From Mesoplasma coleopterae (GTDB lineage: Bacteria > Bacillota_I > Bacilli_A > Mycoplasmatales > Mycoplasmataceae): a stretch of 64,000 nucleotides of DNA. The stretch covers positions 248,001 through 312,000 of the forward strand of contig NZ_CP024968.1 of NCBI RefSeq assembly GCF_002804245.1, read 5' to 3'. The translations under genes and the position numbers were made by a program. The first letter of the stretch is position 1; the number at the start of each line of letters is the position of its first letter. A model generated the notes under the pieces. The model was not told the DNA's origin. It saw only the letters and a program-made list of their open reading frames with translations, and made no database searches. Shown here one piece after another: positions 52,242-59,740 of this stretch.

Positions 52242-52272
52242 TTGCATTAAAGTAGGTTTAATCTTTTAAAAT
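52242..52272 (+). promoter_or_regulatory. MerR-type promoter/operator upstream of merR
   Basis: TTGCAT (52242-52247), a 19-base spacer, TAAAAT (52267-52272). The spacer holds the inverted repeat ATTAAA-GTAGG-TTTAAT. Long spacers with a central dyad are the hallmark of MerR control, so autoregulation is likely. Confidence 0.8.
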
Positions 52273-52299: not shown

Positions 52300-52656
52300 A
52301 TGGAAAAGTTATACATAAAAGATATATCAAAAGAATTATCAATTCCAGAGTATGTATTAAGGTTTTACGATAAGAAAGGTTTATTTCCTTTTTTTGAAAG
52401 AGATGAAAATAATTACAGATATATAGAAAGAGAAAAATTAGAGTGAGTTAGAATTGTATCTTGTTTAAAAAAATCTGGAATGCCTTTAAATAAAATAAGT
52501 GAATATATTGATTTAGCCTTACAAGGTAAAAACACTTATCCAAAAAGGTTAGAAATGATGATTGAACAAGAAAAATTAGTACTTGAAAAGATGAAAGATT
52601 TGCAAGAACAATTAGACTATATTAAATATAAAAAGAAATTTTACGAAAATAATTAA
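52300..52656 (+). CDS. MerR-family regulator, AdhR/NmlR-like
   Basis: The 118-residue product has an N-terminal MerR winged helix (YIKDISKELSIPEYVLRFYDKKGLFPFF, then NNYRYIEREKLEWV) and a C-terminal dimerisation coiled coil (about 78-112). C55 in VSCLKKSGMP aligns with the redox- and aldehyde-reactive cysteine of Bacillus AdhR. There is no metal-binding cysteine loop at the end, so a metal sensor is unlikely. Its own promoter, that of the next gene and that of gapN share one operator type. Confidence 0.9.
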
Positions 52657-52664
52657 TTTTTTGC

Positions 52665-52695
52665 TTGCATTAAAGTAGGTTTAATGAAATATGAT
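52665..52695 (+). promoter_or_regulatory. MerR-type promoter/operator upstream of the aldo/keto reductase
   Basis: TTGCAT (52665-52670), a 19-base spacer, TATGAT (52690-52695). The dyad CATTAAA-GTAGG-TTTAATG is perfect over 7 bp and almost identical to the merR site. Confidence 0.82.
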
Positions 52696-52728: not shown

Positions 52729-53715
<987 letters not shown>

Positions 53716-55162: not shown

Positions 55163-55201
55163 GTGAGTAGAATAAGACCTATATGAAAGAAGGGGAAACT
55201 A

Positions 55202-55906
55202 ATGATAAGTATAAATAATGTAAGCAAAAAATATGGAGAAAAAGTAGGAAACTTTAATATAAATATACAAATTAAAAAAGGCGAAATTTATGGAATAATA
55301 GGTCCTAATGGTGCTGGTAAAACTACTTTAATTAGGCAGATATTAGGTTTTGTAAAACCCGATGATGGCAATATAACAATTAATTCTATGCATTCATGAG
55401 AAAAAAGACAAGAAATAATGGAATGAACAGGTTATATAGCTGGTGAAGTTAGTATTTATGAAGACTATACAGGAATGCAGTTTTTAAAATTAATGTCTAA
55501 TTTAAAGGCTAATGTTGATTGATCTTTTGTTGAAAAACTAATTGAATATTTTGAACTTGACACATCAAGAAAAATAAAAAAAATGTCAAAAGGAATGAAA
55601 CAAAAAATAGCTATAATATCAGCAACTATGAATAAACCAGCTTTTTTAGTATTGGATGAGCCAACTTCAGGATTAGATCCAATAATGCAACAGAGATTTA
55701 ATGAATTGATTTTAAAATTAAAAAGAGAAAACAACTTAACAGTTATAATTTGTTCTCATATTTTTGAAGAAGTTGTAGCACTTGCTGATAATGTAGGAAT
55801 GATTAAGTCTGGTGAATTAATAGAAGAGTTTGTTATTAAAGAAAAAAATATCGAAATAATTAGAGAAAAATTTAAAAGTGTTTTTATTAAGGAGAGTATT
55901 TTATAA
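55202..55906 (+). CDS. ABC transporter ATP-binding protein (ABC-2 exporter type)
   Basis: The 234-residue ATPase has Walker A GPNGAGKTTLIRQILGFVKPD near residue 37, the signature KKMSKGMKQKIAIISATM, Walker B FLVLDEPTSGLDP and H-loop ICSHIFEEV. This is the CcmA/drug-exporter pattern. TGA encodes two Trp residues in HSWEKRQEIMEW. Its stop overlaps the start of the permease gene by one base (TAATG). The substrate is unknown. Confidence 0.9.
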
Positions 55907-56871
55907 TGGTTAAAAAAGTTTCAGGGTTTCAAATAATAAAAACTCATTTAAAATCTAATTGAAAACTAATTTTATTTTTATTTTTAATTGCTCTTGCAGG
56001 ATCAGTTCTTGTTTTATGAATTTTTCTTCTTGGAGATCAAGGCAGAAAATATATTGCTCCATGAAGTCTTACTGTAACAAGCTCAGGTCCTTGAGGATCA
56101 GGAACATCTTTAAGTGGTGGAATGGGTCTTCAGTATCCAATTAGTTCTATATTATTAAGTGCGGGTTGTGTATCAATATTCAGTATATTATCTTTAATTT
56201 TTATTTTTATAACTTTCAATAAAGAAGTTAAGACAACTCAAATAAGTATTTGACTAACGTCTCCAATATCTAAAAAGAATATTATGCTATTTAAATTTTT
56301 ATTTGTTATTTTAACTTTATTTTTAATTTATTTACCTATGTTTTTTTCAATAATTATATTTGCTTCTTTATCATATGATGCAGATAAATATTTCATTAAT
56401 GTATTTGGGCAATTAATTTATTTCTTTGTATTTGTTATTCTTATAAGTGCAGTTTTCAGTTTAATTTTGACTACTTTATCAGACAAAGTTACTTTAGCTA
56501 TAATTCTTTGTGTAGCCATTTTAGTTTGAATGTTTCTTACTTCAATAATAATTAGTTTTTCTCATATATCTAAAACGCATCAAGAAGATATTGAAGGAAC
56601 AATAGTGATTGTTTATACAAAACCTTATAAATGGTTAGAAAATTTCAAATATATTGCTCCACAAACTTTATATGCTCAATTTTTAACTTTTAATATTGAT
56701 AAATATATATCAGACGAATCACTTAACTCAAGTGAAATATATGAAGTAGCTACATTAAATATTGCAAAAACATGATGATTAGTAATCTCTTTATTTATTA
56801 ATATAACTTTAATTTGTTTAATTGAAACTTTAAATTTAAAAATTGTAAATAAAAAAGATTTCAATATCTAA
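55906..56871 (+). CDS. ABC-2 type permease
   Basis: The 321-residue product has six hydrophobic regions: about 18-42, 83-103, 127-150, 162-190, 194-215 and 285-305, the usual ABC-2 exporter number. A Gly/Ser-rich extracellular loop (about 50-75) follows helix 1. Several TGA Trp codons near the start and end are required to keep the frame open. It pairs with the ATPase gene it overlaps by one base. Confidence 0.85.
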
Positions 56872-56979: not shown

Positions 56980-57483
56980 ATGATTAAAAAAGAAACACTT
57001 AAATGATTAAGTGAACAACAGGATTTTTTAGATAATAAAATAATAGAAAAACATAATTTAACTTTAGATCATGAAATTTTTAGAAAAAAACTTATTGCTT
57101 TTTGAGTAGAATTAGGTGAATATGCCAATGAAGAAAAAAGTTTTAAATATTGAAAGCAAGGAGCACCAGGTGCTAAAGAAGTTCAATTAGAAGAATATAT
57201 TGATGGATTACATTTCATCATAAGTTTAGGAAATCAAATTAACTATAATTTTGAGAACTTTAATTTTAAAGATTTGGGATATGACAATAATATTGATTGT
57301 TACTTTGAATTAATAAAAAATTTAACTGCTCTAGTTAATAGCCCAAGTAATGACTCTTTTGCTAAAATTTTTAACTCGTTTTTACAAATTGCAAAAGTTC
57401 AAAATTATTCAGAAGAAGATTTAATTAAAACTTATAAAGCTAAACATGAAAAAAACCAACAAAGACAAGTGGAAAATTATTAA
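56980..57483 (+). CDS. Dimeric dUTPase (all-alpha NTP pyrophosphohydrolase)
   Basis: The 167-residue helical product matches the dimeric dUTPase (dUTPase_2) family, which hydrolyses dUTP to dUMP. The Mg2+-binding motifs are AFWVELGEYANEEKSFKYW (near residue 40) and LEEYIDGLHFIISLG (near 70), that is ExxE followed by ExxxD. TGA encodes the Trp of KYW and of AFW. It keeps uracil out of DNA, complementing ung at 42595. It ends 1 base before the TrmH gene. The family call is good; substrate by family. Confidence 0.8.
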
Positions 57484-57484
57484 A

Positions 57485-58240
57485 ATGGAAAAAATAACAT
57501 CAGCATCAAATAATAAAATTAAAGACTTAATTAAATTAAGAGACGATAAGAAATTTCAAATAGTTGAAAATCTTTTTGTAATCGAAGGATTGCACATGGT
57601 TAATGAAGCCATTAAAAGAAATATTATTAAAACTATATTTTTGGAAGAAAAAATGTTAAGCAAAATTTATGATATTAATAATTTTGAATGTATTTTAATT
57701 TCAGAAAATGTTTCAAATAAAATTTCTTCAACCAAAACAAGTCAAGGAATATTTGCAACTTGCACATTGGAAAAACAAGAAATAAGTTTTGAAAAAAATA
57801 TTTTATTACTTGATCAATTGCAAGATCCAGGTAATATGGGAACTTTAATTAGAAGTGCTGCTTCTTTTGATTTTCAAACTGTGATTGCTTCAAATAATTC
57901 AGTTAATTTTTATAATCCTAAAGTTTTGAGATCAACTCAAGGAAACTTATTTTCAATAAATTTAATAAATGATAATTTAATTAAAGTTATTAGTGAATTA
58001 AAACAAAGTAATTACCAAATTATAGGAACTGTTTTAAATGATGAAACAAAATTTTTGAAACAAATAGAATTTAGCAAGAATCAAAAGTATGCGTTAATAA
58101 TAGGCAATGAAGCAAAAGGTATAAGCGATGAACTTAAACCTTTAATAGATATCAATTTAAACATAGAAATGAGCAATGAAGTTGAATCCTTAAATGCAGC
58201 AATTGCAGGATCAATTATTATGTATAACATTAAAAAATAA
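57485..58240 (+). CDS. TrmH/SpoU-family RNA 2'-O-methyltransferase
   Basis: The 251-residue product has an N-terminal L30e-like substrate-binding domain (TSASNNKIKDLIKLRDDKK, then FVIEGLHMVNEAI) and the SPOUT knot with LLDQLQDPGNMGTLIRSAASF, ALIIGNEAKGISDEL and the closing ESLNAAIAGSIIMY. These are the three SpoU motifs. It probably methylates 23S rRNA or tRNA. ATG at 57485 is preferred because family members start at this point; ATG at 57446 would add 13 residues inside the dUTPase gene. Confidence 0.9.
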   Translation: MEKITSASNNKIKDLIKLRDDKKFQIVENLFVIEGLHMVNEAIKRNIIKTIFLEEKMLSKIYDINNFECILISENVSNKISSTKTSQGIFATCTLEKQEISFEKNILLLDQLQDPGNMGTLIRSAASFDFQTVIASNNSVNFYNPKVLRSTQGNLFSINLINDNLIKVISELKQSNYQIIGTVLNDETKFLKQIEFSKNQKYALIIGNEAKGISDELKPLIDINLNIEMSNEVESLNAAIAGSIIMYNIKK

Positions 58241-58259: not shown

Positions 58260-58290
58260 TTGCCTTATAGTAGGTTGAATGTTTTAAAAT
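58260..58290 (+). promoter_or_regulatory. MerR-type promoter/operator upstream of gapN
   Basis: TTGCCT (58260-58265), a 19-base spacer, TAAAAT (58285-58290). The centre AGTAGGTT and the right arm AATG match the merR and aldo/keto reductase sites; the left arm differs (TATA for TAAA). Confidence 0.72.
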
Positions 58291-58321
58291 TAAATTACAA
58301 TCAAATAAAGGAGAATTTATT

Positions 58322-59740
58322 ATGGAAAAATTCAAAGCAATAATTAACAATCAAGAAATAGAATCTAACTCTTGATTAGATATTATGGACCCAACAACTG
58401 ATGAAGTTTATGCACAAGTTAGCGCACTATCTGCTCAAGAAATAGACTCAGCATTTAAGGCTGCTAAGGCTGCTCAAAAAAACTGAGAAGCAATTGGTGT
58501 TGAAAAAAGAACAGAGTTTTTAATTAGATGAAGAGATCTAATGTTAAAAAACGAAGAGGATTTAGCAACAACAATGATGCACGAAATTGCAAAAGCATAT
58601 AAAGATTGTTTAACTGAAGTTCGCAGAACAGCTGAATATATAGATTTAACAATTTCAGAATATAACGATTTACAAGTTTTAACTTTTGATAAAAATTCTA
58701 AAGGTATTACTGAAGATATAACCGCTGAATACAAAAGAATAGCAAAAGGTGTTGGTGTTGGTATTTCACCATTTAACTATCCAATTAATTTAGCTGTTTC
58801 TAAATTAGCACCTGGATTATTAACTGGAAATACCTTTGTATTTAAACCAGCAACTCAAGGAAGTGTTGTTGGTATCAAAATTGGTCAATTGGCAATTGAA
58901 GCTGGACTACCAGCTGGTGTATTGAATGTTGTAACTGGGCGTGGAAGAGACATTGGAGATGTTATTGTGACAAATCCTTTAATTGATTTTATTTCATTTA
59001 CAGGAAGTGTGCCTGTGGGTAAAAGATTGATGGAAATTTCAAGCTCAAAAGATTTAGTTTTAGAGCTAGGTGGAAAAGATGCAGCCATCTTGTTAGATGA
59101 TCATAACTTAGAAAACATTGCTAAAGATATAGTTGCAGGGGCATTTAGTTATTCTGGACAAAGATGTACAGCAATTAAAAGGGTTATTACTACAGATGAT
59201 ATAGCAGAAAAACTAACACCGTTAATTAAAGCAGAAGTTGCTAAATTAACTGTTGGATTACCAAGCGAAAATCCTATCATTACACCTATGATAGATAAAA
59301 AAAGTGCTGATTTTGTAACTGATTTAATTAATGATGCTATTAAAAAAGGAGCAACTTTGGTTTATGGTGGATCTAGAGATAAAAACTTATTGCAACCTAC
59401 ATTATTGGATAATGTTACAGTTGAGATGAATGTAGCTTGAGAAGAACCATTTGGCCCTGTGCTTCCAATTATAAGAATAAATGAAATTGAAAACATGATT
59501 AGTATAGCCAATAAATCAAATTTTGGTTTACAAACTTCAATTTATTCAAAAGATGTAGACTTAGCTTATAAAATCGCTGAACAATTAGAGGTTGGAACTG
59601 TAAATATTAATAGAAGAACTCAAAGAGGACCTGATGTTTTACCATTCTTAGGTGTAAAAGATTCAGGGTTTGGTGTTCAAGGAATAAAAGAAACCATTTT
59701 ATCAACAACAAGATATAGAGGAATAATAATTAAAAAATAA
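58322..59740 (+). CDS. gapN: NADP-dependent glyceraldehyde-3-phosphate dehydrogenase (GapN type)
   Basis: GapN oxidises glyceraldehyde 3-phosphate directly to 3-phosphoglycerate, giving NADPH without ATP. The 472-residue aldehyde dehydrogenase has GVGISPFNYPINLAVSKL near residue 142, FTGSVPVGKRL, the catalytic Glu in LELGGKDAAILLDD and the nucleophile C282 in YSGQRCTAIKR. The Arg/Lys pattern around RCTAIKR is typical of GapN. TGA encodes Trp in three places. A GGAG site precedes the ATG. Its promoter carries the MerR-type operator. Confidence 0.92.

Follow-up and report, generated by a model that had tools for sequence, protein, structure and literature searches.

A putative composite operator of unlike MerR-type half-sites before the gapN gene of Mesoplasma coleopterae

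This study focused on a promoter-like site upstream of gapN in Mesoplasma coleopterae, within a window of 64,000 nucleotides (the whole stretch of DNA that was analysed; NZ_CP024968.1, positions 248,001 to 312,000). The site was confirmed, in that gapN sits behind a MerR-type promoter at which regulator binding is predicted, and its two operator halves are unlike: the left matches the site type of a regulator encoded outside the window (MerR-B), while the right resembles that of a regulator encoded nearby (MerR-A). We tentatively prefer the reading that gapN has long been a target of MerR-B and that its operator turned composite, the parts played by the two regulators being deduced from their sites. 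If true, this would be a highly economical way of integrating signals, with two MerR-type inputs acting via one operator of unlike halves, on a gene that probably supplies most of the NADPH.

The features of the gapN region are as follows (positions in the window).

57446..58240, forward strand: spoU-type rRNA methylase gene, directly upstream of gapN
58260..58265, forward strand: -35-like element TTGCCT of the gapN promoter, its TTGC invariant in 10/10 gapN sites
58264..58271, forward strand: left half-site CTTATAGT, MerR-B type (10.0 bits under the B model, 5.6 under the A model)
58273..58280, forward strand: right half-site GGTTGAAT, MerR-A-like with one change (6.0 bits under the A model, 1.9 under the B model)
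58285..58290, forward strand: -10 element TAAAAT, 19 bp past TTGCCT (sequence inspection)
58307..58313, forward strand: ribosome-binding-like AAAGGAG before gapN
58322..59740, forward strand: gapN (Pfam Aldedh; GAPN enzymes make up the best 11 PDB sequences, lowest E 1.7e-138)

On sequence inspection the promoter occupied 58260-58290, with TTGCCT, a 19-base spacer, TATAGTAGGTTGAATGTTT, and then TAAAAT; written by parts it reads TTGC CTTATAGTAGGTTGAAT GTTT TAAAAT. The start codon is the ATG at 58322, and transcription is expected to begin at about 58296-58297, going by the 6-7 base spacing given in excerpts of PMC7745072. The corresponding operator of G004, another genome of the genus, lies at 287315-287345 on the forward strand, with a predicted start near 287351-287352. 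MerR promoters have spacers of 19-20 bp (PMC9909328, in excerpt), and the 19 bp found at gapN were shared by the other collected sites. Since M. florum promoters have no clear conserved -35 box, according to the passages at hand of PMC7745072, the fixed TTGC-19 bp layout is conspicuous. An inverted repeat within the spacer was perfect at the gapN site of a sister species, G002, and at the SDR (short-chain dehydrogenase) sites, and imperfect at the M. coleopterae gapN site, because the halves of the latter are of two types.

Three places in the window matched a degenerate 31-base pattern at up to 3 mismatches, each in fact with 0 mismatches: 52242 (merR), 52665 (aldo/keto reductase) and 58260 (gapN). 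The same pattern gave a mean of 0.08 and a maximum of 2 places in 100 dinucleotide-preserving shuffles, a figure that is not fully independent, as the pattern was composed once the sites had been seen. The original observation of a MerR-type site with a 19-base spacer before gapN was borne out. In the whole genome (800,407 bases, read with TGA as W), the pattern AGTAGGTTNNATNTTTTANAAT was matched exactly at two places, the promoters of merR and gapN. At 0-1 mismatch there were four operator places, before merR-A, the aldo/keto reductase, an SDR gene and gapN; at 3 mismatches the operator pattern found nine, and its reversed control likewise nine. Another MerR pattern, applied to 60 genomes at up to 2 mismatches, matched 41 places across 19 genomes, and its reversed control matched none in the same genomes at the same threshold. 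The signal comes from the MerR pattern and not from the promoter pattern: a general search for -35/-10 elements yielded no information (97 promoter-like sites, with 95.0 expected), and neither did a loose TTGAC-20-TANNAT pattern (43 against 44.4).

Two MerR proteins are encoded in the genome, according to Pfam. The first lies in the window, with its own promoter and a target gene.

52242..52272, forward strand: MerR-A operator/promoter of merR-A itself, TTGC ATTAAAGTAGGTTTAAT CTTT TAAAAT
52300..52656, forward strand: merR-A, NmlR-like, with the conserved cysteine (Pfam MerR_1; NCBIfam NmlR 64.3 bits, cut-off 175)
52665..52695, forward strand: MerR-A operator/promoter of the aldo/keto reductase gene
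52729..53715, forward strand: aldo/keto reductase (Pfam Aldo_ket_red, E 4e-77)

Both of these promoters have the form TTGC ATTAAAGTAGGTTTAAT N4 TAnnAT. The second regulator, merR-B, also NmlR-like, is at genome positions 216343-216687, outside the window, and stands before two tandem SDR genes that are 57% alike (genome 216343-218525; L068, L160); no MerR site belonging to merR-B itself was present in the DNA read around 216343-218525. The SDR promoter operator is TTGCACTATAGTTACTATAATGTTTTAGAAT in M. coleopterae and TTGCCTTATAGT(T/A)ACTATAATGTTTTA(A/C)AAT in most relatives of the genus, where the MerR-B operator takes the form CTTATAGT-N-ACTATAAT, unlike the MerR-A type. The two proteins have 49/117 aligned residues in common, and as both score below the curated NmlR cut-off of 175 bits (MerR-A 64.3, MerR-B 76.4), they are termed NmlR-like and no more. 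The ten B-type rows of the alignment have EQT in common in a helix, which, from MerR structures, is presumably the one that reads DNA. The cysteine described as absolutely conserved in the NmlR clade (PMC4776306, in excerpt) was found at Cys54/Cys52 in 20/20 A-type rows and 0/10 B-type rows, where Leu or Ile stands instead. With this cysteine kept in MerR-A and missing in MerR-B, the proposal that an aldehyde is the signal for gapN is unsupported.

Some variation in these cassettes was seen elsewhere. In a more distant genus (L047, G025), merR-A is 72% identical to the M. coleopterae copy and gapN 55%; the cassette of merR-A and the aldo/keto reductase gene may have been transferred between genera. 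Two MerR-A operators of G002 (L046, 1437 and 1877) have the asymmetric centre reversed (ATTGAACCTACATTAAG, ATTGAACTTACATTAAG) relative to other species of the genus. In one further genome, G035 (L167), the MerR-like site CTTATAGTTACTCTAAT precedes a gene predicted to be lipoprotein-like, and a second, ATTAGTCTAGGTCTAAT, precedes a gene whose start looks NAD(P)-binding, beside a lone MerR gene; these perhaps represent a third site type.

The two operator types differ at positions 5/13 of the 17-base dyad, which were A/T in 27/27 A-type sites and T/A in 12/12 B-type sites; types were assigned from the target gene and the regulator nearby, and the set includes near-identical sites of close species, which are not independent events. 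Excluded from this half-site count were the two G035 sites (T/C and G/C, neither type) and a G023 site at 587331 (A/T, so A-type). A half-site model, tested by leaving out one site at a time, classed 46/46 distinct half-sites correctly, and in all 39 sites of the set before genes other than gapN both halves were of one type. The ten gapN sites were otherwise: eight were mixed, one (G002) was pure B and one (G007) was neither. Positions 5/13 were T/T in G000, G001, G003, G004, G005 and G006, T/A in G002, T/G in G007, and A/A in G014 and G021. In M. coleopterae the left half scored -4.4 bits (the B side) and the right half +4.1 (the A side), while G014 and G021 showed the mirrored arrangement, with left halves at +4.4 and +1.9 and right halves at -3.4 bits. 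The two mirrored orientations belong to two genera, and merR-B lies near gapN in both G014 and G021. An A/B mixed site was found before no other gene among the places listed at 0-2 mismatches, by patterns that left positions 5/13 free to mix; the G035 site among them is T/C. TTGCCT is present as originally described. The left arm, which had been taken for broken, is CTTATAGT, a complete half-site of the MerR-B type, and the right arm is similar to the MerR-A type.

The identification of the gene as gapN was upheld. Eleven GAPN sequences in PDB matched its product at E 1e-127 or better, with the next class at 7e-74, and by these matches it is a genuine GAPN, apart from other aldehyde dehydrogenases, with NADP-linked activity predicted. 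Aldo/keto reductases and SDRs, the other targets, are commonly NADPH-dependent, and it makes sense for gapN to rise along with them. The glucose-6-phosphate dehydrogenase family had a match in 0/7 genomes of the genus, and JCVI-syn3A draws its NADPH mainly from GapN, which is essential in vivo, and in tiny amounts from FolD (PMC6609329, in excerpt). GapN is the probable main source of NADPH in M. coleopterae as well, and the suggested link to NADPH supply is plausible. A spoU relative precedes gapN in 25/30 gapN loci, and since no terminator is listed in the spoU-gapN interval of M. coleopterae, basal read-through is likely, to which the MerR promoter would add. A reciprocal switch between GAPDH and GapN, as had been envisaged, found no support, given this interval and the fact that none of the four operator places is at another glycolytic gene. 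Between pgi and the dUTPase gene of the window is a pair of ABC transporter genes (55163-56871), both closely matched in the G003 and G004 neighbourhoods and neither in those of G001, G002, G005 and G006; the pair is, on this distribution, an accessory insertion.

The history of the site was explored in several ways. The gapN site of G002 is a perfect MerR-B operator and matches the G001 SDR site at all 31 bases, while the mixed gapN site is 31/31 identical in five species, whose gapN fourfold-degenerate sites share 53-56% identity (G001 against the other four). The flanks of the site are also well conserved, which indicates constraint on the promoter region and not on the operator alone. In a tree of SMC, G002 was the first branch of the genus (support 88/89), and the simplest account is then that a B site turned mixed once, before G005 split off; SMC together with ten neighbouring proteins left the fork at G002 open. 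The gapN protein tree failed to order G001, G002 and G005, and the ten neighbouring proteins failed to root it. When 3-4 random substitutions were simulated on a B operator, in a rough and after-the-fact test, a strong mixed site arose in about 1% of cases and a weaker one (g9) in 13-16%. Across the two genera, the mixing perhaps represents two independent events.

Upstream DNA was available for 30 gapN loci out of 56 gapN matches, and the site was present at 10/30. Comparison of related species had been put forward as a check, and it did reveal a shared site, though the pure form, in G002, is of B and not MerR-A type. The site was found in 9/11 loci with merR-B or its remnant and 1/19 without (G007), against 9/18 with merR-A and 1/12 without; the genomes are related, so that the counts are not independent, and the merR-A count treats G003 as present despite a stop. 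In G023 and G028 both regulators are present, but at gapN the site was not found. G007, with no match to merR-B, nonetheless has a site-like sequence at gapN, upstream of which is a frame that looks like EF-Tu. In G014 merR-B is directly upstream of gapN. About 190 bases separate the site from the start of gapN in G014 and G021, a longer distance than in the genus of M. coleopterae. As the site occurs in three gapN neighbourhoods, it goes with gapN. Among six loci from a scan of named genomes, Mesoplasma grammopterae was the one close relative, and a search for further genomes of the genus of G014 gave four in all.

Two genomes have lost regulators. In G005 (L061, about 1400-2900), neither merR-A nor the aldo/keto reductase has a match, and stops and frameshifts have eroded merR-B and the SDR gene; judged by these frames, both members of the regulatory pair have been lost naturally. 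The gapN site of G005 was kept, and no other gapN site has so exact an A half. In G003, merR-A (L045, 1501-1880) has an in-frame TAA at codon 23 with the remaining frame intact, which may be a recent loss or a sequencing error, and the gapN site is unchanged. Unless these losses happened recently, some other cause must be maintaining the right half.

The left half, the perfect B operator of G002 and the co-occurrence counts together indicate MerR-B for gapN, and nearby MerR-A was not supported as the sole or original regulator. The idea that the site is a diverged operator of MerR-A alone, with gapN following its aldehyde-like signal, draws on the distance of 6 kb between merR-A and gapN, on the core AGTAGGTT common to both, and on their promoters being the sole exact matches of one genome-wide pattern. 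It is very unlikely, since the left half fits MerR-B (10.0 against 5.6 bits) and the G002 gapN site is pure B though merR-A is retained there. Control by MerR-B only would require that the right half drifted to a weaker, sufficient form and that its likeness to A is coincidence. This agrees with the G002 operator, with the closer tracking of merR-B than of merR-A, and with the A-like half of G005, where merR-A has no match; against it, 3/4 changed positions match the A half and are fixed over 31 bases in five species, and a mirrored mixture exists in another genus.

The regulator losses in G005 and G003, with the site kept, weaken the case for a composite operator, and because of them control by MerR-B only keeps a chance that is far from negligible, unlikely as we hold it to be. 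They also leave some room for a relic or ordinary promoter, with gapN transcribed constitutively or mainly by read-through from spoU, as the persistence of the site in G005, the interval without a listed terminator and the common spoU-gapN order would allow. We consider this quite improbable, in view of the 31/31 identity despite near-saturated synonymous change, in species that keep the regulators, and of sites in three gene neighbourhoods. A bolder proposal is a long shot: the composite would have arisen on two occasions, in mirrored orientations, and be bound by a heterodimer of MerR-A and MerR-B, so that a near-minimal cell would integrate two stress signals in its central NADPH production at a 17-bp site.

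The composite operator that we tentatively prefer builds on features read directly from the sequences, namely the presence of the site, of two operator types and of mixed halves that are conserved; from these we infer binding, activation, signals and the action of both regulators. With its 19-bp spacer, the gapN promoter would work poorly until a MerR dimer, bound and activated, distorts that spacer. The site would have been inherited as a MerR-B target, its right half rewritten towards the MerR-A operator in the ancestor of most of the genus, and the composite, once formed, conserved. Activation of either or both regulators would then raise gapN above read-through from spoU, and the resulting NADPH would feed the reductases of both regulons, so that a composite operator would let NADPH supply follow both regulators.

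In the open literature, as represented by titles, the starts of abstracts and passages, no description of this regulon or of a composite MerR operator was found, which is weak evidence of absence. The string MerR in excerpts of PMC7745072, PMC8290834 and PMC5893858 was the author name Merryman, and PMC5138195 had no MerR anywhere. According to excerpts of a 2024 review, none of the tested M. florum promoters was inducible (PMC10884336); if our reading is true, natural inducible promoters are predicted in Mesoplasma florum, before the aldo/keto reductase, SDR and gapN genes.

The enzyme is the same as that of JCVI-syn3A and other mollicutes, but gapN of M. coleopterae is preceded by a MerR-type promoter, while the excerpts of PMC6609329 name no gapN regulator for JCVI-syn3A. 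Both regulators have their best curated family match in the NmlR/AdhR branch (B. subtilis AdhR, H. influenzae NmlR), a branch marked by responses to formaldehyde, methylglyoxal or thiol stress; the best PDB matches include 3gpv, named B. thuringiensis NmlR in an excerpt of PMC5045206, their targets are carbonyl-type oxidoreductases, and MerR-A carries the clade cysteine. They differ from that branch in scoring far under the NmlR cut-off, in the lack of the cysteine in MerR-B, in being two paralogues with unlike half-sites, and in having a central glycolytic-bypass gene among their targets. Classical MerR promoters, where a homodimer sits on a palindrome, likewise have a 19-bp spacer with the dyad inside; what sets the gapN operator apart is that its halves match the site types of two different paralogues.
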